Both the position numbers and the translations under genes were made by a program. Below are positions 3,006 to 53,904 of a DNA stretch of 55,143 bases, piece by piece. The DNA comes from a virus, in IMG/VR virus record IMGVR_UViG_3300033153_005039, positions 1 through 55,143 of that record, one strand, 5' to 3'. The notes under the pieces are model-generated. The model was not told where the DNA came from. It did no database searches and saw only the letters and a program-made list of their open reading frames with translations. How positions within the stretch are numbered: the first letter of the stretch is position 1; every line of letters begins with the position of its first letter.

Positions 3006-4172
3006 ATGAAGATCGCGACTAAGAAATTATCAGAGCTGAAACCGGCTCAATATAATCCCCGTCAAATCTCAGACACCGCAATGGCAGGACTCCGGGCGAG
3101 TATCGAGCGATTCGGACTCGTGGAGCCCATCGTGTGGAATAAGCAGACTGGGCATATCGTAGGCGGACACCAACGCCTGAAGGTCCTGGAAGAGCAGGGC
3201 GTTAAAAAAACCGAGGTAGTCGTAATCGATATCGCGGAATCAGAGGAACGTGCCCTTAACGTGACGCTGAATAATCCCGGTATCACTGGTGAGTTCACGC
3301 CTGACCTACAGGCAATACTTGGTGATATCAAGCTGGACATCGGCGAGGATGATTTCTGTGACCTGCGTCTCGACGATTTGCTCGATCCAGTGCTGAAGGA
3401 AGGCAAGACTGATCCCGACGACATCCCTGAAGTAACAGAGCCGACAGTCAAGCCCGGTCAGATATGGAAGCTAGGCATGCACCGGGTTATGTGTGGTGAC
3501 TCGACCGACGCGGGAGCTGTGGCGTTGCTTATGGACGGGATGAAGGCTGATATGGTTTTCACTGATCCGCCATATGGTATCGATTATATTCCGAATTATT
3601 CAACATCGAACCGCCCTTATAAGAATTCTGCTATTAAAGGGGATGACAAAGTTGACATATCATGGATTGAGCTATTCGAGGCACCGCGAAGATATGTTTG
3701 CACACGCTGGGATGTATATCCACACTGGCTGACTGCCCTAAGTAATGTTAAAAATTTAATTGTCTGGGATAAAGGTCAAGGTGCGGCGGGCAATGTAAAA
3801 TCATATGCGCCAAGACACGAATTTATAATCTTTACGGCAAGTGATTCAGGGGAAACGCATCGAGACAAAAGGCAGGATAACCTCTGGTTGGTTCCCGGAT
3901 TCGCGCAATTCACAGCAAGAACAAAAGAGGATACATGGGGTGTTCATCCAACGCAGAAGCCGGTTCAGTTAGTCGAGAATGCGATATTAGATAGCTCGCA
4001 TGCAGGAGAAGTCGTCGTGGACCCATTCCTCGGTTCCGGCTCAACCCTGATAGCCTGCGAACGCACCGACCGCGCATGTTATGGAATGGAAATAGATCCC
4101 CACTACTGCGATGTGATAATCAAACGCTGGGAGGATTATACCGGCTACAAGGCCGCACTTGTGGTACAATAA
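3006..4172 (+). CDS. ParB-like nuclease/CTPase domain fused to a DNA methyltransferase
   Basis: Residues 1-120 form a ParB/Srx-type domain, with the GGHQR signature at 53-57. Residues 145-388 form an SAM-dependent N6-adenine/N4-cytosine methyltransferase, with the catalytic DPPYGIDY at 187-194 and the cofactor loop DPFLGSGST at 339-347 (beta-class order: catalytic motif first). Such fusions are common in phages and usually methylate phage DNA. Target sequence cannot be read from the protein. The gene has its own promoter and ribosome site GCAGGAG. It is one of three methyltransferases in the genome. Confidence 0.92.
   Translation: MKIATKKLSELKPAQYNPRQISDTAMAGLRASIERFGLVEPIVWNKQTGHIVGGHQRLKVLEEQGVKKTEVVVIDIAESEERALNVTLNNPGITGEFTPDLQAILGDIKLDIGEDDFCDLRLDDLLDPVLKEGKTDPDDIPEVTEPTVKPGQIWKLGMHRVMCGDSTDAGAVALLMDGMKADMVFTDPPYGIDYIPNYSTSNRPYKNSAIKGDDKVDISWIELFEAPRRYVCTRWDVYPHWLTALSNVKNLIVWDKGQGAAGNVKSYAPRHEFIIFTASDSGETHRDKRQDNLWLVPGFAQFTARTKEDTWGVHPTQKPVQLVENAILDSSHAGEVVVDPFLGSGSTLIACERTDRACYGMEIDPHYCDVIIKRWEDYTGYKAALVVQ
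4162..4170 (+). promoter_or_regulatory. Extended -10 promoter (TGGTACAAT), probably leaderless
   Basis: TG-G-TACAAT ends eight bases before the ATG of the small terminase candidate. Initiation about 7-8 bases downstream would fall on the start codon itself, and no Shine-Dalgarno sequence lies between. Confidence 0.55.
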
Positions 4173-4756: not shown

Positions 4757-4789
4757 ACCATCTACCCATTTCGGGATTGTTTTAGAATG

Positions 4790-4819
4790 CCTGGTCACGG
4801 AGGACCGGGTGTTTTTTTT
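4790..4819 (+). terminator. Intrinsic terminator
   Basis: CCTGGTC/GACCGGG stem (7 bp, one G-U), six-base loop, then TG and eight Ts. It ends the small terminase transcript just before a consensus promoter. Confidence 0.85.
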
Positions 4820-4840: not shown

Positions 4841-4869
4841 TTGACAGTAAGTACAAAGGGGTTTATACT
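4841..4869 (+). promoter_or_regulatory. Consensus sigma70 promoter
   Basis: TTGACA and TATACT separated by exactly 17 bases, 39 bases upstream of the next start codon. The spacer shares much of its sequence with the leftward promoter at 35986-36014, ending in GGTTTATACT in both, so a common regulator may bind there. Confidence 0.85.
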
Positions 4870-10220: not shown

Positions 10221-12528
10221 AGCCAAGTCTGAAAAAAAGAAATCGATGCCCTCCCTTGAAGCCGCAAAGCTACTCGCGGCACAGCCCCCGAAATCTTTAA
10301 AAAGGCAGATCAGGAACCTGCTCGGAGTACTATCATCGCCTGAGAAAGCGCACGATGTCTGGGCAGCCCTGCTTTCATACCTTCCCAATCCTGATAAAAT
10401 CCTTGAAACTGCTGGAGCGGATGAAAACGTTCGCTTCTATGACAGCATGGTCGATAGTGACAGCCATCTTGCCGGGTTAATCAACACCCGCATGGATGCC
10501 GTCACTGGTTTGGACTGGGAGATCATACCCGCCAGTGAAGAGGACAAGGATGTCGAGATTGCCGATTTTGTCCGGGATCAGTTCCTGAACATCTTTGAAT
10601 TCGAGAACGATCTCGAAGAACTCATGGGCGCGGTCCGTACCGGGTACTCGGTATCTGAAATCGTATGGGAGCGGCAGGACTCAAAGATCGGCGTCGTTGC
10701 TTTATTATCACGCAGACCTGAAAGATTCAGGTTCGATAACGATTACCAGCTTAGATTAAGGACGAAAGACAACTGGCATATCGGCGAACCAGTCCCGCCG
10801 AATAAATTTATTGTTCACAGAAACAGGATGCGCTACGAAGGCCCGTATGGTGTCAGTGCGTGTCGTGCCGCTTACTGGGCATGGCGATTCAAACATGAGG
10901 GCTTCCAGTGGTGGATCGTGGCTGCTGAAAGGAACGCGGTGCCTACACCTGTCGGGGCGTATCCTGCAGGATGGGATGCGGACCAGCAAAACGATTTCAT
11001 GAACCGGCTCGTGGGTTTCCAGAACGATAACGCGATCATTTACGAGATTGGCGCGGAAATAAACATGATCGCGACGAAAACGGACCCGCAACTGAATGAA
11101 AAACTACGAGATGCCTGCAATGAAGAAATGGCATGGGCTATCATCGGTTCGACTCATGCGACGGGCACCGGGGCAAAAGGCGGCGGATCATACGCGCTTG
11201 CCCGTGAGCATGGCACTGTCCGCCAGGATATTCTGGAACGCGACTCGAAGCGTTTGATGTCCACGATCAACAACCAACTCGTAACGCCGCTGGTCCTATT
11301 TAATTACTTCGAGCCCGAGAATGGCTATCCACGGTTCAGATTGATGTGCGAACCCCCGGCTGATCGTAAATTAGAGACTGAAATCACTGAGAAAGCGGTC
11401 AAGATGGGCATCGAAGTGGATGAGCGTATTGCTACAGAGAAGATGGGAATCAAGGTTGCAGAGGATGGCGCGAAAGCAATTGAGGGTCCTACTACCGGAT
11501 TTGGTAATGATGAATTTCCAGCAGGCGAACTCAGCGAAAAGAAATCTTATCCCGTCACTATCGAACTAGCGTCGGCGGCGGAGAAGGAAGGGAATCGAAA
11601 CGTCAAGATAATGGACAAGCTGGGCGATGCGGCAGTTGAATACGGCACACCTGCGATGGAGAAGACGGCGGATCAGTTCAAGGACTGGCTCAAAACGCAG
11701 GCAACGCTCGAATCCGCCCTGGGCAATCTGAACTATTTCAGTTTCAGCCCGGACCCACTAGCAAGTAATCTCACCGATATTAATTTCTGGAACCTGCTCT
11801 GGGGCTATCATGAAGTGTTCCGGGATAAGCGGATAACAAAGAATCTGTCACGGCAGACCAAGAACATATTCGGCCTGAAACGTACCGTTGAACTGCCAAT
11901 ACAGCTACAATCGGCGCAATATAAGCCGTTACGACCCGATGAGGCCATTAAATTATTCGAGAAACGGAAAGTGCTGGACAGGGAGCAGTTCGATCTATTA
12001 CTGGACTATGCACGACAGGAATCATTCACTGCGGCAGGGATCACCCTTGACACGCTCGATAAAAAACTTAAACCTGCAATGATCGAGGCGTTGAGTGAGG
12101 GACAAACCCTGTCGCAATTTACAAAGGCGGTCGATGATATTCTGGTCACACCGGGACATATCGAGGTCGTATACCGCACAAACATGATCGCAGCGTACAA
12201 TCAGGGGCATACTGACGCTTATTTCGACCCGTTAGTGGCCGATTCGATCCCCGCGATACAATTCATTGCCGTGATCGATGACAGGACCACGGATATTTGC
12301 GAGAGCCTTGACGGTCAGATATTCTTGAAGGGTGATGCTCTCGGAGCACAGCTTACGCCTCCGCTTCATTATCAGTGCAGGTCAACGACGGTCCCGGTGT
12401 TCAGTGATGAGTTCGCTAAGGTATCCGGTGACAAGGTGTTCGACCCGTCCGTGATGAGCCGATGGCCTGAGAAAGCACAGCCATTACCGGGATTCGGGTA
12501 TTTCAGACCCGTCGTGAACAAAGTTTAA
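10213..12528 (+). CDS. Portal protein (DUF935/Mu gp29-like) fused to MuF head morphogenesis domain
   Basis: Residues 1-430 match the Mu gp29/DUF935 portal family in style: YDSMVDSDSHLAGLINTR, then GLDWEI and the DxQxNEKL region. The last 200 residues carry the MuF hallmark: VYRTNMIAAYNQG, then DDRTTDIC and PPLHYQCRST. Separate genes in Mu (29 and 30) are one 771-residue polypeptide here. The portal forms the dodecameric DNA channel; MuF domains are minor internal head proteins. It is translated in coupling with the terminase. Confidence 0.92.
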   Translation: MAKAKSEKKKSMPSLEAAKLLAAQPPKSLKRQIRNLLGVLSSPEKAHDVWAALLSYLPNPDKILETAGADENVRFYDSMVDSDSHLAGLINTRMDAVTGLDWEIIPASEEDKDVEIADFVRDQFLNIFEFENDLEELMGAVRTGYSVSEIVWERQDSKIGVVALLSRRPERFRFDNDYQLRLRTKDNWHIGEPVPPNKFIVHRNRMRYEGPYGVSACRAAYWAWRFKHEGFQWWIVAAERNAVPTPVGAYPAGWDADQQNDFMNRLVGFQNDNAIIYEIGAEINMIATKTDPQLNEKLRDACNEEMAWAIIGSTHATGTGAKGGGSYALAREHGTVRQDILERDSKRLMSTINNQLVTPLVLFNYFEPENGYPRFRLMCEPPADRKLETEITEKAVKMGIEVDERIATEKMGIKVAEDGAKAIEGPTTGFGNDEFPAGELSEKKSYPVTIELASAAEKEGNRNVKIMDKLGDAAVEYGTPAMEKTADQFKDWLKTQATLESALGNLNYFSFSPDPLASNLTDINFWNLLWGYHEVFRDKRITKNLSRQTKNIFGLKRTVELPIQLQSAQYKPLRPDEAIKLFEKRKVLDREQFDLLLDYARQESFTAAGITLDTLDKKLKPAMIEALSEGQTLSQFTKAVDDILVTPGHIEVVYRTNMIAAYNQGHTDAYFDPLVADSIPAIQFIAVIDDRTTDICESLDGQIFLKGDALGAQLTPPLHYQCRSTTVPVFSDEFAKVSGDKVFDPSVMSRWPEKAQPLPGFGYFRPVVNKV

Positions 12529-13309: not shown

Positions 13310-13352
13310 TTCATGCCCGGTCCATTGCGGACGGCGCGAAAAGTCCCACGTG

Positions 13353-13374
13353 GCACTCTAACGAGTGTCTTTTT
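13353..13374 (+). terminator. Weak intrinsic terminator
   Basis: GCACTC/GAGTGT stem (5 GC/AT pairs plus a G-U) with a TAAC tetraloop, followed by CTTTTT. It lies just before the protease gene and may limit readthrough from the small genes or be partial. Confidence 0.5.
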
Positions 13375-16659: not shown

Positions 16660-17235
16660 ATGAGTACAATAGTAACTTATCAGGCTATTTATCGCATAGG
16701 CCCAGTCAAAGTCTCAAAGGGTCATGCTGGAATGCAGTCCCGGAAAGTTAACGAAACGTTCACTCTCAACATTGATGATCCGCTTGAGAGGGCGTTGCGT
16801 GACCGGCTACAGAAATTGGGCGCGATATTGCCGATCAATGAACCTGATCTTCCAATTGTTCAGGGGCAGGTGGATGAGCCTGCCCCTGTTGTCGTGGAAG
16901 TATCGGAGCCGCCAGAGTATTCCGAGCCTATTGAGGGCATAACTCCTGAGCATATTCCGGAATCCACTGAGACTGATTACGTCCCAGGTTCCGGGGTACA
17001 AACCAAGCCACTCGATGAACCCATCGATACCCTGATCGATATTCTCACGCCTGAAATCGTGGACACTTTGGAACGCTCCGGCGTTAAGACAATCCGCGAT
17101 CTAGAACGGCGTGAGGACAATGCACTCAGGAATATTGGTGGAATCGGTGCCAAGCGTCTGAAAAACCTCCGCGAAGCTTACAATGAACGCAAAGTGGAGG
17201 AGATGAAGGCAGATGGCGCGGTATCTCACGATTAG
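16660..17235 (+). CDS. Head-associated protein with C-terminal helix-hairpin-helix, 191 aa
   Basis: Beta-rich N-terminus, a Pro/Glu-rich linker (residues 70-120), then a C-terminal domain LTPEIVDTLERSGVKTIRDL...GGIGAKRLKNL, which reads as a helix-hairpin-helix like that in RNA polymerase alpha C-terminal domains and SLOG/HhH connectors. In phages such C-terminal domains occur in head-tail joining proteins. DNA binding inside the head is possible. Confidence 0.7.
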   Translation: MSTIVTYQAIYRIGPVKVSKGHAGMQSRKVNETFTLNIDDPLERALRDRLQKLGAILPINEPDLPIVQGQVDEPAPVVVEVSEPPEYSEPIEGITPEHIPESTETDYVPGSGVQTKPLDEPIDTLIDILTPEIVDTLERSGVKTIRDLERREDNALRNIGGIGAKRLKNLREAYNERKVEEMKADGAVSHD

Positions 17236-17431
17236 AACGTGTCATACCGGATGTAAGCGGCGACCAAAGTATCTGCATCCGGAAGGTGTCGTTATCGAGA
17301 TGCCACCGGATAATAACCGGGTCAAGACATGGCTTTCGCAGCGACGTATCAAGCAGGTTGCCGATGATACGCCGTTGACATCGCCGAAGGATTACAAGGC
17401 CAAGATGGTCGCATTGATGAGGCGAAAATGA
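17213..17431 (+). CDS. Hypothetical basic protein, 72 aa
   Basis: Starts 23 bases inside the previous gene and ends overlapping the next start, so it is translationally coupled on both sides. The protein is basic and ends ALMRRK. It contains a short beta segment (EGVVIEMP). It lies among head-completion genes; role unknown. Confidence 0.65.
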   Translation: MARYLTIRTCHTGCKRRPKYLHPEGVVIEMPPDNNRVKTWLSQRRIKQVADDTPLTSPKDYKAKMVALMRRK

Positions 17432-21821: not shown

Positions 21822-24578
21822 ATGGCACTACCGGGATCAACAAAGTATAAAGTAGGACTCGTTTTCGATATCGAGCGAACCGGCTTTATGCGCGGTCTCA
21901 GGGAGATTAATACGAAGGTCGAGGAAAGCCGTAACAAGATGCAGAGGAATTACGGCGCGATCTCTCAATCGATAACGAACGTGGGTCAAAAGTTCATGGT
22001 GGCTACGGCTGCCATTGTCGGCTTCGGCGCGATGGCCGTAAAGACGGCTGCGGACTTTGAACGTGCCATGAACCGTGTCGGTGCTGTATCAGGGGCAACT
22101 GAGGAACAGCTTGCCGCGCTGACAGATCAGGCAAAGGAACTCGGACGCACGACTCAATTCTCGGCATCGCAGGCAGCGGACGCGATGGGATTTCTGGCAA
22201 TGGCTGGATTTGAGGTCAACGATATCATGGGCGCGATGCCGTCCACGTTACAGCTTGCAGCATCGGCCCAGATGGATCTTGCGCAGGCAGCTGATATCAC
22301 ATCGAATATTTTAACCGGCTACCGCATGACAGTTGAGGAACTGGAACACGCCAATGATGTTCTGGTAAAAACTTTCATCTCAACGAATACGAACCTGGCT
22401 CAATTAGGCGAGGCGATGAAATATGCCGCGCCTATTGCTGCATCTGCTGGGATTCAATTCGAGGAAGCATCGGCGGCCATTGGCCTGATGGGTAATGCTG
22501 GTATACAGGCTTCACTTGCCGGAACATCATTGCGTGGGGCGATTGTCAGATTATTGACACCGGGCGGTGAAGCGGCCTCGGTCATGGAGGAACTGGGCCT
22601 ACAAGTCCTTGACGCTACCGGAAACCTGCTACCCCTTGTCGATATCGTAGAACAATTGGAAAGGTCCGGGGCGACCACAGCGGATATGATGACGATATTC
22701 GGACTCAGGGCCGGACCAGCATTCGCCGCTCTTGTCTCGCAGGGCAGTGTCGCTTTGCGTGAGCTTATCGTTGAACTTGAAAATTCAGGAGGCACGGCGG
22801 AGCGAATTGCAGAGAAACAAATGGAAGGACTGCACGGCCAGTTATTGAAATTAAAAAGCGCATTCGAGGGCTTCATGATCGCCCTTGCTGACTCCGGGCT
22901 GATTCAGTGGGTGACAGATACCGCGACGAAAATAACTGAGTGGGTCAGTGCGATGGCGAAATATGATAAACAGACTTTGAAAACAATTATTGTCGTCGGT
23001 GCTCTCGTAGCCGCGATAGGTCCCCTGTTAATAATTCTTGGACAGATTATTATGATTGCCCCCGCTGTCGGAACTGCCGTTACATTCATGTTCGGGCCGT
23101 GGGGATTAGTTATTGCCGGGGCCGTGACAGCGCTTATTCTGGTAACGAAGCATATCAATGCGGTAACGGTAGCGATTCGAGCAGAGATGGACGCCTTAAA
23201 CGCGGAAATTGATGCTATCAACGAAAGCATAGATGCCCATGATGAAATGAGAGAGGAGGTAATTGATCTCAATACTGAGATTGAAAATCTGAGCGAGGAA
23301 ACTGATATAGCGGCGGGAACTTTCGACACATTAAACGACAGGATAATTAAAGTAATTGATGCGTATCCCAAATTGACAGAACAGATGGGATATTCACTGA
23401 CTGCTACTGGCGAGCTTTACGACAAATCCGGGGACCTTGTAGATACAATTGAAGACCAGCAGAGATTATTCGATGCATTTTCATCGGCCTCGATTGTGGG
23501 AGAAATAGACCGGCTGACAACGGCTGAAAGAACTTTGATGGAAGCAGTCAGGGAACGGGCAAGAGTACAGGCCAAAGAGGAATTTTTCGCAGAAAAGGGC
23601 GGATTCGCTGGGTGGTTCAATCGTTTAATCGGACTTGGCGAATGGCAGAAAGAGGGAATGGAACAGGCGTATGGCGGAAATGCATTCGAGGAGTGGCTTA
23701 GAGAAAATTACCCACATCTTGCCACGCCACAGCCGTGGTTAGATGCGCCGCCAACCGTTACGCCCACGGCACCCATTCCGGTTGTAATTGAAGACGATGG
23801 TGAAGATGGCCGTACAAGTACAGGAAGGGCGGCGACTGATGCAACTGAGGATAACACGGAAGCGGTAATAAGCCTTGAAGATGAAATGGCGCAACTGCGA
23901 GAAGCGTTCTTTGAAGTGCCGGACCTGATATTCCGTGGCATGACAACAGGCGCGGATATCGCTTTCGGAGATTTCCTGCGTGATGCGATAGAGGCATTCA
24001 GAGATAGTGAACCGCCAAAGCCTGTAACTGAATTCGATTTTGCGGACCCATTCAGGCCAGCCGCTATGGGCGGTAACGTAATCGATAAGATCAGCGACTT
24101 CTTTGTTGACTTCACAGATGCGATGGAAAACGGTTTAATGGATATGGAGAAGCAGCTATACAATGTCGTGGGGCAATTCGCGGCTGATCTCGTAAGCGGT
24201 GACGTAGGGACTGCGATTCGCGGGGCATTCGCGGGACTCGCCAATTATATTGCGTCGGCAGTACAGCAATCGGTGTCTGCATCAATCGGCGGTGGCGGCA
24301 TGTTTGCCGGGATTGCCGGGGCCGCTATTGGCGGGGCTGTCGGTGCCGGAGTCGCAATACTTGGATCATTGCTATTCCCCGCGAAGCAACCCGGTTTCAG
24401 TAAGGAACTGCCGATCTATGCCAGCATCACGAACTGGAACGAACAGAACCTTGGCAGCTTCTTACCGTTCTCATTTATGATGTCGGGACGTGCCGGGGAG
24501 TTCGATGTTGACTACAGGGGCGCAAGTCTTGACCGCATGAGACAGGGACGACGGTTAGGATTCCATTACATGCAATAA
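21822..24578 (+). CDS. Tail tape measure protein, 918 aa
   Basis: N-terminal TP901-type tape measure domain: KTAADFERAMNRVGAVSGAT, then LGRTTQFSASQAADAMGFLAM, then GLMGNAGIQASLAGTSLRGA. Hydrophobic segments near residues 385-440 form probable membrane-inserting helices. A coiled coil follows (residues 450-510), then a Gly/Ala-rich membrane-like segment near 820-845. At about 0.15 nm per residue the tail would be around 135-140 nm. Position after G/GT is standard. Confidence 0.93.
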   Translation: MALPGSTKYKVGLVFDIERTGFMRGLREINTKVEESRNKMQRNYGAISQSITNVGQKFMVATAAIVGFGAMAVKTAADFERAMNRVGAVSGATEEQLAALTDQAKELGRTTQFSASQAADAMGFLAMAGFEVNDIMGAMPSTLQLAASAQMDLAQAADITSNILTGYRMTVEELEHANDVLVKTFISTNTNLAQLGEAMKYAAPIAASAGIQFEEASAAIGLMGNAGIQASLAGTSLRGAIVRLLTPGGEAASVMEELGLQVLDATGNLLPLVDIVEQLERSGATTADMMTIFGLRAGPAFAALVSQGSVALRELIVELENSGGTAERIAEKQMEGLHGQLLKLKSAFEGFMIALADSGLIQWVTDTATKITEWVSAMAKYDKQTLKTIIVVGALVAAIGPLLIILGQIIMIAPAVGTAVTFMFGPWGLVIAGAVTALILVTKHINAVTVAIRAEMDALNAEIDAINESIDAHDEMREEVIDLNTEIENLSEETDIAAGTFDTLNDRIIKVIDAYPKLTEQMGYSLTATGELYDKSGDLVDTIEDQQRLFDAFSSASIVGEIDRLTTAERTLMEAVRERARVQAKEEFFAEKGGFAGWFNRLIGLGEWQKEGMEQAYGGNAFEEWLRENYPHLATPQPWLDAPPTVTPTAPIPVVIEDDGEDGRTSTGRAATDATEDNTEAVISLEDEMAQLREAFFEVPDLIFRGMTTGADIAFGDFLRDAIEAFRDSEPPKPVTEFDFADPFRPAAMGGNVIDKISDFFVDFTDAMENGLMDMEKQLYNVVGQFAADLVSGDVGTAIRGAFAGLANYIASAVQQSVSASIGGGGMFAGIAGAAIGGAVGAGVAILGSLLFPAKQPGFSKELPIYASITNWNEQNLGSFLPFSFMMSGRAGEFDVDYRGASLDRMRQGRRLGFHYMQ

Positions 24579-49369: not shown

Positions 49370-49621
49370 CTAACCGCTTTTCTTAGATTTCTTTTGTTTT
49401 TTCGCGTACCTATTTAATAGGTCTGGCTCCGCGCCCTCGATACATCGGAGCGTCCCGCGAGTGATTCCTTGAAACCCTTTGACAATGCGGGATATATGCG
49501 ATTCGTCCAGCATTGCAGCAAGGGCAATCTCGCGCTGGCTGTATCCAAGCCCCTTTAAGCGTTTAATAATCACCATTGCAGCGTCCCGGCGTTTTTGGTT
49601 GTTGAGTTTGTTTGTGCACAT
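49370..49621 (-). CDS. Helix-turn-helix regulator of the divergent switch, 83 aa
   Basis: Residues 20-52 (IIKRLKGLGYSQREIALAAM then DESHISRIVKGF) form a helix-turn-helix; the tail is basic (RYAKKQKKSKKSG). ATG at 49621 preferred; the frame is open further up but lies in the promoter. The predicted transcription start is at or next to this ATG, and no ribosome site precedes it, so the mRNA seems leaderless, as for lambda cI from PRM. It probably represses the adjoining promoters. Confidence 0.8.
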   Translation of the reverse strand: MCTNKLNNQKRRDAAMVIIKRLKGLGYSQREIALAAMLDESHISRIVKGFQGITRGTLRCIEGAEPDLLNRYAKKQKKSKKSG

Positions 49622-49627
49622 GCAGAG

Positions 49628-49656
49628 AATATAACACACTTAAATGTTTTTTGCAA
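49628..49656 (-). promoter_or_regulatory. Leftward promoter of the HTH regulator (PRM-like)
   Basis: Minus-strand TTGCAA and TATATT are separated by 17 bases. The -35 abuts the -35 of the rightward promoter (49657). The spacer contains CTTAAATGTTTT, part of a direct repeat. Confidence 0.7.
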
Positions 49657-49676
49657 TTGACATCCTTAAATTTTTC
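49639..49676. promoter_or_regulatory. Direct repeat, probable operator sites in the divergent promoters
   Basis: CTTAAATGTTTT (49639-49650) and CTTAAATTTTTC (49665-49676) lie in the spacers of the leftward and rightward promoters, 26 bases apart, on the same strand. They are the obvious binding sites for the HTH regulator, but no footprint is available. Confidence 0.5.
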
Positions 49677-49685
49677 GTTTATAAT
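49657..49685 (+). promoter_or_regulatory. Rightward early promoter
   Basis: TTGACA, a 17-base spacer and TATAAT, both boxes perfect. It drives the structured leader and the replication operon from 50024 on. Confidence 0.88.
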
Positions 49686-49751
49686 CCAAGCGTACACTCA
49701 AGTCCTCCCCCACGGAATGGGCTTTGAGGCCGGGGGTGACACGGAGGTTGC

Positions 49752-49770
49752 CCCCGGTGAACCTTGAAAA
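49752..49770 (+). repeat. 19-bp repeat in leader, copy 1
   Basis: CCCCGGTGAACCTTGAAAA, overlapping the 3' arm of the first hairpin. An exact second copy lies 96 bases downstream in the same position relative to another hairpin. Confidence 0.9.
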
Positions 49771-49847
49771 TAAAATAGAATCCTCATCAGAGGTTTCCTT
49801 GCCGACAGGGGCAAGCCACAATTAATGGGAGGTGGCCTGTCACATCT

Positions 49848-49866
49848 CCCCGGTGAACCTTGAAAA
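49848..49866 (+). repeat. 19-bp repeat in leader, copy 2
   Basis: Exact copy of 49752-49770. The hairpin arms upstream differ in sequence but both pair, so the structure appears to be conserved in the duplicate. Confidence 0.9.
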
Positions 49867-50023
49867 GTTATTGAAGTGGGCTGCCGGAAAGCTTAAACGT
49901 CACTGGCAATACTAGTCAGCCACACAAGCCTCTACCGACAGTCCTCTTGAATAACTGCGCTGTAAGGAATTCAGCCGGGGGACACCAGACGCGATTCTGA
50001 TCCCCCGGCACCTGGAGGACACG

Positions 50024-50323
50024 ATGGAAAAAATGACACTGGATGAATTACTACACCACATAAACTGCTTTGGCGAGGCGAACGAATCAAGCACGGCGAA
50101 CATTATCCACGCCTTCATTAAGAAAAACCGCGACGCCCTCACCGCTGGATTGCAGAAGCCTTTGAGGTTTAAAGAAAAAAACGGGACGTGGGCTGAGGTT
50201 TTTCCCGATGGCGAATATGTCTACGACGATGGAGACGGCAATTCGGCATTGAATTATTACGATAAGCAGGCAGTGATAAACGATTGTAAGCGTCGCGGCC
50301 TGCCCTGTGAATTCATCGAATAG
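50024..50323 (+). CDS. Hypothetical protein, 99 aa
   Basis: First gene of the rightward early operon; CTGGAGGACACG leader directly after the long hairpin. Helical beginning (LDELLHHINCFGE) and a C-terminal beta-containing part ending RRGLPCEFIE. A short leftward ORF at 36179 has a similar ending. Function unknown. Confidence 0.75.
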   Translation: MEKMTLDELLHHINCFGEANESSTANIIHAFIKKNRDALTAGLQKPLRFKEKNGTWAEVFPDGEYVYDDGDGNSALNYYDKQAVINDCKRRGLPCEFIE

Positions 50324-52336: not shown

Positions 52337-53134
52337 ATGAACACAGACTTCAGAATCACAACAGACGCGCTAGACCACCCGAAACTGGTAAAACTTAAAC
52401 GTATGACAGGCGATGCCGGGATCATCAGCCTCATGCGGTTGTGGGGATTCACAGCCCGATACCATCCGCGCGGGGATCTGAATGATATGACCCCGGACGA
52501 TATCGAGATATCGGCGAAGTGGGAAGGTCCTGCAGGTGAGTTTTTCAACGCGATCCTGAACCTGAAATTGCTCGATGAATGCTTAGGGCAGTACTCAGTG
52601 CATGACTGGGAGGAACACAATTCATACGCCTATCATGCCCCGGAACGAACAGCTAAGGCTAAGAATGCAGCAAGGATACGATGGGCATCCCAAGAGGATG
52701 CTAGTAGCAATGCTGCGGGCAATGCGGATGGCAATGCCCCTTCTCCTAATCCTAATCCTGTTCCTGATCCTTCTCCCCCTCCTAATCCCTCTCCAAAGAA
52801 AACGCGGACGAAACCTAAGACAAAACAGCCCTCAGATAACAAGACCCGACAGATCACGGACTGTTATCAAGAGCTGTACATCAAGAGGTTCAACAAGAAA
52901 CCGATCTGGGGAGCAGTGGAAGGGAAACGAATTAAGCGTTTACTTACTGACTTCGACGGTGACGCTGACAGGATATGCACGGCATTTGAGAACGCATTCA
53001 AGTCAAAAGAAAAGTTCATGAGCGATAACGTGGGCTCCTTCATGACCTTGACGGCTAAGGCGGTAATCACTAAGGCCGATACTATAACGGGCGTTAAGGG
53101 GCCACGTATGGGCGGGAGGCCGTATTCTGAATGA
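52337..53134 (+). CDS. Replisome organiser/initiator-like protein, 265 aa
   Basis: N-terminal winged-helix-type domain (DHPKLVKLKRMTGDAG, then LMRLWGFTARYHP, then ISAKWEG) as in DnaD-like and O-type phage initiators. A Pro-rich repetitive linker (residues 135-155, PNPNPVPDPSPPPN) and a C-terminal helical domain (YQELYIKRFNKKPIWG). Located immediately upstream of the PP-loop enzyme and DnaB, as initiators are. The linker's DNA is a pyrimidine-rich repeat that may hold the replication origin. Confidence 0.78.
   Translation: MNTDFRITTDALDHPKLVKLKRMTGDAGIISLMRLWGFTARYHPRGDLNDMTPDDIEISAKWEGPAGEFFNAILNLKLLDECLGQYSVHDWEEHNSYAYHAPERTAKAKNAARIRWASQEDASSNAAGNADGNAPSPNPNPVPDPSPPPNPSPKKTRTKPKTKQPSDNKTRQITDCYQELYIKRFNKKPIWGAVEGKRIKRLLTDFDGDADRICTAFENAFKSKEKFMSDNVGSFMTLTAKAVITKADTITGVKGPRMGGRPYSE
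52738..52797 (+). repeat. Pyrimidine-rich tandem repeat inside the replication gene (possible origin)
   Basis: About ten diverged copies of a 6-base unit CCTNAT/CCTTCT/CCCTCT code for the Pro-rich linker. The strand has almost no guanine. Lambda O and related initiators carry their iterons inside the gene, so this may be the origin, though codon bias for Pro/Asn could also create the pattern. Confidence 0.45.
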
Positions 53135-53904
53135 CTGGCTTAATCGAAAAGCAATTATTCGGAACTGTTGACAAGGTGGCGGATGCCATCAAATTGCTTC
53201 GCGCACTTGAACCGAATGATGGTTACTATCTCGCATTCAGCGGCGGTAAAGATTCTGTAACTATCAAGGCGCTGGCTGATATGGCGGGTGTTAAATACGA
53301 TGCCCATTACAGTGTGACGACAATTGATCCGCCCGAACTCGTGAGGTTTATCAGGAATAATCACACTGATGTACACTTTGAAAAGCCGCTCCATCCATAT
53401 TTTCAAGAATTCAAAACTAACGGAATGCCTTTGCGGACAACGCGATGGTGCTGTAAATTACTAAAAGAACGGGCCGGGAAGGGCAGAACCGTTTTGACTG
53501 GCGTGAGAGCAGATGAAAGCATAAAGCGGAAAGGGCGCAAGAAGGTAGAGAATTGCTTGCGTGGTAGTGGCAAGCGTTACGTTCATGTGATATTTGATTG
53601 GACCAATAACGATGTGTGGGATTTTATCAAGCAGGAAAGTTTGCCGTATTGCTCACTTTACAATGAGGGTTACAAGAGAATCGGATGCATCGCATGTCCT
53701 ATGAAGTCGGCAAAATTGCGACAGCAAGAACTTGAACGCTGGCCCAAATATAAAAGAGCTTTCAGAAATGCCTGCCTGAAATATTACAATAAGGGATTGC
53801 CATCAGTAAAGAGGTGGGAGAGCGGAGAGGCAATGTGGCAATGGTGGATTAGCGATGAGTCTTTACCGCAGTTCGATGATGATGAATTGGGATTATTCGC
53901 ATGA
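53131..53904 (+). CDS. PAPS-reductase/PP-loop family enzyme, 257 aa
   Basis: PP-loop SGGKDS at 37-42 binds ATP or a related nucleotide; RTTRWCCKLLKE and IGCIACPM cysteines in the second half are typical of the CysH/DndC-like group and may bind an iron-sulfur cluster. Phages carry such genes near replication genes, and DNA phosphorothioation or other sulfur chemistry has been proposed for relatives. The neighbouring methyltransferases make a DNA-modification role plausible. No Dnd partner genes are seen. ATGA overlap with DnaB. Confidence 0.85.
   Translation: MTGLIEKQLFGTVDKVADAIKLLRALEPNDGYYLAFSGGKDSVTIKALADMAGVKYDAHYSVTTIDPPELVRFIRNNHTDVHFEKPLHPYFQEFKTNGMPLRTTRWCCKLLKERAGKGRTVLTGVRADESIKRKGRKKVENCLRGSGKRYVHVIFDWTNNDVWDFIKQESLPYCSLYNEGYKRIGCIACPMKSAKLRQQELERWPKYKRAFRNACLKYYNKGLPSVKRWESGEAMWQWWISDESLPQFDDDELGLFA

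Follow-up and report, generated by a model that had tools for sequence, protein, structure and literature searches.

Most of what is known about Nus-dependent antitermination in phages comes from E. coli phages that supply an N protein of their own. In lambda, a boxA stands in the early leader beside a divergent regulator, with boxB located 3′ of boxA. The put element of phage HK022 comprises two stem-loops and has no boxA. It is an RNA antiterminator on an early phage transcript that requires no phage protein (cited in PMC11658703), and the present locus is likened to it by description. Nus-dependent coliphages with three nut sites have also been reported (PMC11893012), and the order of elements in rrn leaders is boxB-boxA-boxC (PMC10250234). 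Among conjugative elements, Tn916 carries canT, a demonstrated cis-acting processive antiterminator in the orf8-xis region that is most likely an RNA, with an active fragment 126-577 nt after orf8 and inactivating changes at 229-390 and 283 nt (PMC11658703). Control by boxA outside rRNA operons includes E. coli suhB and a Citrobacter toxin-antitoxin gene; the boxA in the suhB 5′ leader represses translation, and lambda nutL, ∼200 bp upstream of N, represses N (PMC5725501). Among the literature matches listed, none placed an rrn-type boxA in the leader of a phage or conjugative element outside the lambdoid and Nus-dependent coliphages.

The locus described here is most likely the early control region of a phage. 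Its rightward transcript begins with a structured leader containing two hairpin-boxA modules, and the balance tips slightly toward a leader that would load host Nus factors for antitermination.

Divergent promoters and a putative regulator

The window, meaning the whole stretch of DNA analyzed, is an IMG/VR virus record of 55,143 bases with identical 37-base sequences at its ends, so it is probably a circularly assembled genome. No tRNA or Rfam family was found in it, and the terminase matched phage proteins only below 60% identity, indicating no host. In the list of open reading frames, the plausible genes fall into two arms: one is read rightward, beginning at 50024, crossing the joined ends and reaching about 35489, and the other is read leftward, between 49621 and about 36277. 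The promoter region sits at the split of gene direction. The features at the split are as follows.

49628 to 49656, minus strand: leftward promoter TTGCAA-17-TATATT, 9/12 consensus positions, with TG before the -10 (extended -10)
49657 to 49685, plus strand: rightward promoter TTGACA-17-TATAAT, 12/12 consensus positions, the only such site in the window
49634 to 49649 and 49660 to 49675: two 16-nt direct repeats, 13/16 alike and weak, a possible operator half
49370 to 49621, minus strand: 83-residue helix-turn-helix-like regulator, ATG at 49621, alternative in-frame ATG at codon 16

Both promoters are of the sigma70 type, and their -35 boxes, TTGCAA and TTGACA, abut exactly, as the original prediction had stated. 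Chance was modeled with 200 simulated windows of equal length drawn from a first-order Markov model. Of these, 2% contained a 12/12 promoter and 8% an abutting divergent pair with both members at 9/12 or better; the real window has one of each, the pair being that at 49628-49685. No simulated window (0/200) held an abutting pair summing to at least 21/24. By these frequencies the rightward promoter and the abutting pair are beyond chance, and the leftward promoter alone is unremarkable, with 37 sites of at least 9/12 on the minus strand of the window.

The leftward -10 and the ATG at 49621 are six bases apart (CTCTGC), and no Shine-Dalgarno sequence precedes that ATG. Given a start 6-8 nt after the -10, the predicted leftward transcript begins on the ATG or within about one base of it, in agreement with the earlier claim of a start at the regulator's ATG without a ribosome site, and a leaderless regulator message is plausible by position. 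The regulator matched HTH_3 with an E value of 1e-4 and 22.7 bits, just below the curated cut-off of 23, and PHROG regulator families matched it weakly (best, 0.0013). The all-helical AlphaFold model has a mean pLDDT of 55, and this low confidence made it unsuitable for a fold search. Among viral contigs, 32 pattern stretches yielded no confirmed relative (0/32), and searches of phages yielded none.

Repeats shared by the two promoter spacers had been proposed as operators, and of this part of the original prediction the repeats themselves were recovered. CTTAAAT occurs in both spacers, at 49639 and 49665, and the likeness extends to 13 of 16 nt. When the 70-nt region was shuffled 1000 times, 0.6% of the shuffles gave a direct repeat of that quality, its length chosen post hoc, and 20% gave an exact 7-mer repeat. 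The operator proposal comes down to this one repeat. The best dyad, ACACTTAAATGT (10/12), was rejected as an operator because 50% of shuffles matched it.

The arrangement resembles lambda cI/cro in having divergent promoters beside a gene for a helix-turn-helix-like regulator, and the evidence supports a divergently transcribed control region, with a small regulator that putatively binds DNA, at the split of gene direction. The integration functions of a temperate phage are another matter: PF00589 and PF00239, the only integrase and resolvase families searched, had no match in the window, in keeping with the claim that the genome shows no integrase. A lambda-like bistable switch, with the regulator binding operators in both spacers, a leaderless message and an incidental leader, is rather improbable. 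The abutting promoters, the putative regulator, the 13/16 repeats and the leftward start at the ATG would all suit such a switch, but the dyad is at chance level, neither PF00589 nor PF00239 was found, no second repressor was identified and the rightward leader is left unexplained. The control region of the proposed switch holds up, and bistability, a second repressor and plasmid-like maintenance were not shown by the tests run.

The rightward leader and its two boxA copies

The comparison with lambda is strengthened by the rightward transcript, whose structured leader with two boxA copies would be a functional parallel to the nut sites that follow early promoters. The features of the leader and first gene, all on the plus strand, are as follows.

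49691 to 50023, plus strand: untranslated structured leader of the rightward transcript; start at about 49692, inferred from the promoter
49702 to 49708, plus strand: GTCCTCC, 5′ strand of a long-range stem, pairing probability 0.99-1.0 with 50014-50020
49729 to 49758, plus strand: hairpin 1, in a boxB-like position, predicted fold
49759 to 49770, plus strand: boxA1, exact string GAACCTTGAAAA, just after GC-rich hairpin 1
49782 to 49793, plus strand: small hairpin CCTC-ATCA-GAGG after boxA1, predicted minimum-energy fold
49827 to 49850, plus strand: hairpin 2, in a boxB-like position, predicted fold
49855 to 49866, plus strand: boxA2, exact string GAACCTTGAAAA, just after GC-rich hairpin 2
49974 to 50009, plus strand: hairpin GCCGGGGGA/TCCCCCGGC before the ribosome site, predicted fold
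50014 to 50020, plus strand: GGAGGAC, first gene's Shine-Dalgarno sequence, predicted to be occluded by the long-range stem
50024 to 50323, plus strand: first rightward gene, 99 residues, no relative found

The leader of about 333 nt has no recognizable coding sequence, and the longest frame across both boxA copies is 64 codons. Its predicted fold has a free energy of -138.9 kcal/mol (z -6.0). Compared with 330 tiled windows of the same length on both strands of the genome, the leader (z -5.5) is more extreme than all; the tile closest to it in score (49951, z -5.1) overlaps it in position. The next strongest folding outside the leader is at 16984-17317 on both strands (z -4.1 on the plus strand, -4.6 on the minus strand).

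A hairpin-rich stretch at such a place could also be a replication origin, which is very improbable here. The detrended cumulative GC skew has its minimum at about 50146, coinciding with the switch of gene direction, and a replication-initiation-like gene lies at 52337-53134. The switch of gene direction would by itself explain the skew, however; the transcribed strand folds more strongly (z -5.5) than its complement (-3.8), and no iteron array was seen.

The two boxA copies belong to a 19-nt repeat, CCCCGGTGAACCTTGAAAA, present twice in the leader with GAACCTTGAAAA as its core, and as parts of one repeat they are not independent. The exact GAACCTTGAAAA is absent elsewhere in the window, where 0.007 copies are expected. 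The same string is given as the boxA of 16S-23S spacers in a cyanobacterial genus (PMC8461337). The extended pattern GTGAACCTTGAAAANNNAATA gave 87 stretches in a scan of species genomes, seven of which lie no more than 3.5 kb from a 16S or 23S anchor: six are 108-191 nt before rRNA and one is in a spacer. The remaining stretches include contig ends and, judged by eye, sites before mobile-element-like genes. Of 25 Bacilli genomes, 7 contained the sister form GTTCTTTGAAAACT, and 21 of the 24 places examined are at 16S, either 79-93 nt before it or 106-144 nt past its 3′ end. These rRNA contexts and the printed boxA string identify the motif family as rrn boxA; the leader's strings are identical to a form used in rRNA operons of some bacteria, and this host's own form may differ.

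In the genome stretches, a hairpin before boxA with a stem score of at least 14 occurred in 42% of 62 non-redundant cases, compared with 14% of shuffles, a moderate enrichment. Because its hairpin is 5′ of boxA, the module resembles rrn rather than lambda. With the antitermination element of rRNA leaders (rrnTAC), the locus shares a strong promoter, a hairpin followed by boxA, an untranslated leader and the exact boxA string of some bacteria, but it has two hairpin-boxA modules, phage genes downstream and a much longer structured leader. The third rrn element, boxC, is poorly defined outside enterobacteria. With lambda nut it shares a boxA in an early phage leader beside a divergent regulator, yet the hairpin is on the other side and the boxA form is another. 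In the position of a nut boxB, which is a hairpin with a purine-rich loop 3′ of boxA, there is a small hairpin with an ATCA loop after boxA1 and no equivalent after boxA2.

The match to boxA might instead be a coincidence made conspicuous by the 19-nt duplication, the leader being another structured RNA such as a free noncoding RNA. The leader has no known relative, its boxA copies arose as one duplication, and tandem boxA at 70-100 nt spacing was found in none of 391 Clostridia genomes. Coincidence nonetheless seems improbable: a given exact 12-mer is expected 2e-5 times in a 333-nt leader, a figure that serves only as a guide since the motif was recognized post hoc, and other viral contigs share the layout.

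Nus loading, readthrough and translation

The favored scheme, Nus loading, would proceed as follows. The small helix-turn-helix protein would be produced from the leftward promoter and probably acts as a repressor of at least one of the two back-to-back promoters. When the strong rightward promoter fires, a 333-nt untranslated leader would be made, from which the two hairpin-boxA modules would emerge in turn. Host NusB/NusE and other Nus factors may then bind the modules as they do on rRNA leaders, and the Nus-loaded polymerase would resist termination and read through intrinsic terminators among the rightward genes. The completed leader is predicted to adopt a fold that shuts the first gene's ribosome site, perhaps adding translational control.

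In modeled folds of the growing transcript, boxA1 and boxA2 are 0.91 and 0.80 unpaired on emerging, a prediction from one sequence, as are the lower values of 0.46 and 0.32 in the complete leader, which count against Nus loading. Candidate terminators on the plus strand of the rightward array are strong terminator-like hairpins at 2952-2976, 4784-4815 and 13352-13369. The right arm is not enriched in terminator-like sites relative to shuffles, which counts against the antitermination reading, and a promoter-like site (11/12) at 4841, right after the second of these hairpins, could serve the later genes instead.

Alternatively, the leader could act as a translational riboregulator of the first gene, with Nus factors on boxA, or cleavage, tuning translation and no antitermination taking place. 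This is unlikely. In its favor, the Shine-Dalgarno sequence at 50014-50020 is predicted to be closed by 49702-49708 with a probability near 1, the ends of boxA2 and boxA1 are 148 and 244 nt before it, and in the repressing suhB boxA and lambda nutL leaders, too, boxA is 5′ of the ribosome site and set apart from it by structured RNA (PMC5725501). Here, by comparison, there are two boxA copies, and the ribosome site is closed by a predicted long-range stem. Two hairpin-boxA copies exceed the needs of a ribosome-site lock, and a 7-nt complement of the Shine-Dalgarno sequence within 330 nt is not very rare, at an estimated ∼2% by a simple count.

Related layouts in viral contigs and mobile elements

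The first gene had no family match, and five pattern stretches gave no confirmed relative; the leader had no relative in phages and no match in Rfam, and no syntenic leader was found. When 17 window proteins were compared with the collected loci, only dam, mtase, rep, paps and a 388-residue protein recurred. The replication-initiation-like protein had one distant relative (L011), and the protein at 53131-53904 matched 72 loci, among which were two boxA-like strings.

Viral contigs were scanned for tandem boxA copies 39-131 nt apart, and three scans gave 35, 5 and 3 stretches, or 41 distinct loci. Of these, 37 were dropped for open frames of at least 227 codons; the contexts examined were repetitive coding sequence, mostly collagen-like, and L114-L119 with parts of L113 and L120 were judged coding by open frame alone. 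In the four loci kept, the longest frame spanning both copies is 76 codons in L207, 55 in L210, 151 in L211 and 292 in L100, whose noncoding status is only presumed given a frame of that length in GC-rich DNA.

These four viral contigs have comparable promoter-leader-boxA layouts of varying strength. L207 has a 12/12 promoter with a 16-nt spacer, boxA at 544 and 619 on the reverse strand and a strongly folded leader (z -6.2). L100 has the promoter TTTACA-17-TATCCT, the hairpin GTGATATC/GATATCAC and boxA at 237 and 340 (z -2.0). The same hairpin occurs in L211, with boxA at 11669 and a second at 11804 (z +0.6); L100 and L211 are 89% alike over a 27-nt hairpin-boxA piece and share scattered short GC-rich matches. 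In L210, the first boxA-like string doubles as the -35 of a 12/12 promoter, so that the RNA carries a single boxA, preceded by a hairpin; its folding is z -3.3 over 698 nt and -0.2 over 333 nt. Strong folding is thus not common to all four, and the two weakly folded leaders (L100 and L211), like the single boxA of the L210 RNA, count against Nus loading. None of the four records contains an exact GAACCTTGAMAA besides its two strings, which lie on the same strand, and the backward-read control of GAACCTTGAMAA gave no match in any of the six records searched. Otherwise, the contigs have little in common with the window or one another beyond boxA, as would be expected if boxA is the selected part, a suggestion drawn from four cases of uneven quality. 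None of the four was seen to have a divergent regulator, which is perhaps peculiar to this phage.

An initial scan with a 17-mer gave nine stretches, of which L004 alone was apparently relevant. This 43-kb viral contig has four boxA-like copies (480-494, 1877-1891, 2725-2739 and 3238-3252) in intergenic gaps on both strands, some after GC hairpins.

A similar leader was found in the Tn916-like element of pCF10 (L212, 22100-22067, minus strand), where a hairpin, GGCT-AACG-AGCC, is followed by TTGTTCTTTGAAAACTGAATA between orf8 and xis. Like the present leader, it is a mobile-element leader with a hairpin and rrn-type boxA heading a long operon. It differs in having a proven antiterminator 3′ of its boxA, and no other sequence likeness was seen. 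Mapped on the pCF10 copy, the active canT fragment starts at 22080, inside boxA, and the mapping is confirmed by an ATA at 283, where PMC11658703 places it. The hairpin and the exact rrn-type boxA therefore lie just upstream of, and partly outside, the active fragment. A boxA thus accompanies a real antiterminator that may not need it, and the canT case counts against a simple boxA-antitermination reading. The word boxA does not occur in the text of that paper. The boxA beside canT offers a ready test of the part played by boxA in mobile-element antitermination.

A wider proposition is tentative and, on present evidence, somewhat doubtful: that in diverse non-lambdoid phages the main early transcript opens with an imitation of the host's rRNA leader, a hairpin-boxA unit, often in tandem and in the host's boxA form, which would capture the rRNA antitermination complex without N and may divert Nus factors from rRNA synthesis. 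If true, twin rRNA-type signals with the hairpin on the rRNA side would constitute a protein-free route to antitermination, the motif would help to locate early operons of uncultured phages, and phage early transcription would be tied to host ribosome production.

Near-identical leaders with GTGAACCTTGAAAANNNAATA recur across Clostridia genomes (L015, L027, L040, L066, L067 and L087; L046 and L081; L017; L065; L078; L095), and the genes that follow them resemble, by eye, mobile-element genes for ParA, replication, primase, recombinase or integrase. A separate repeat family has a GCACAT/ATGTGC hairpin directly 5′ of GTGAACCTTGAAAA (L021, L038, L043, L054, L055, L056 and L084), often at contig ends, and may represent an insertion-sequence end or a collapsed repeat.
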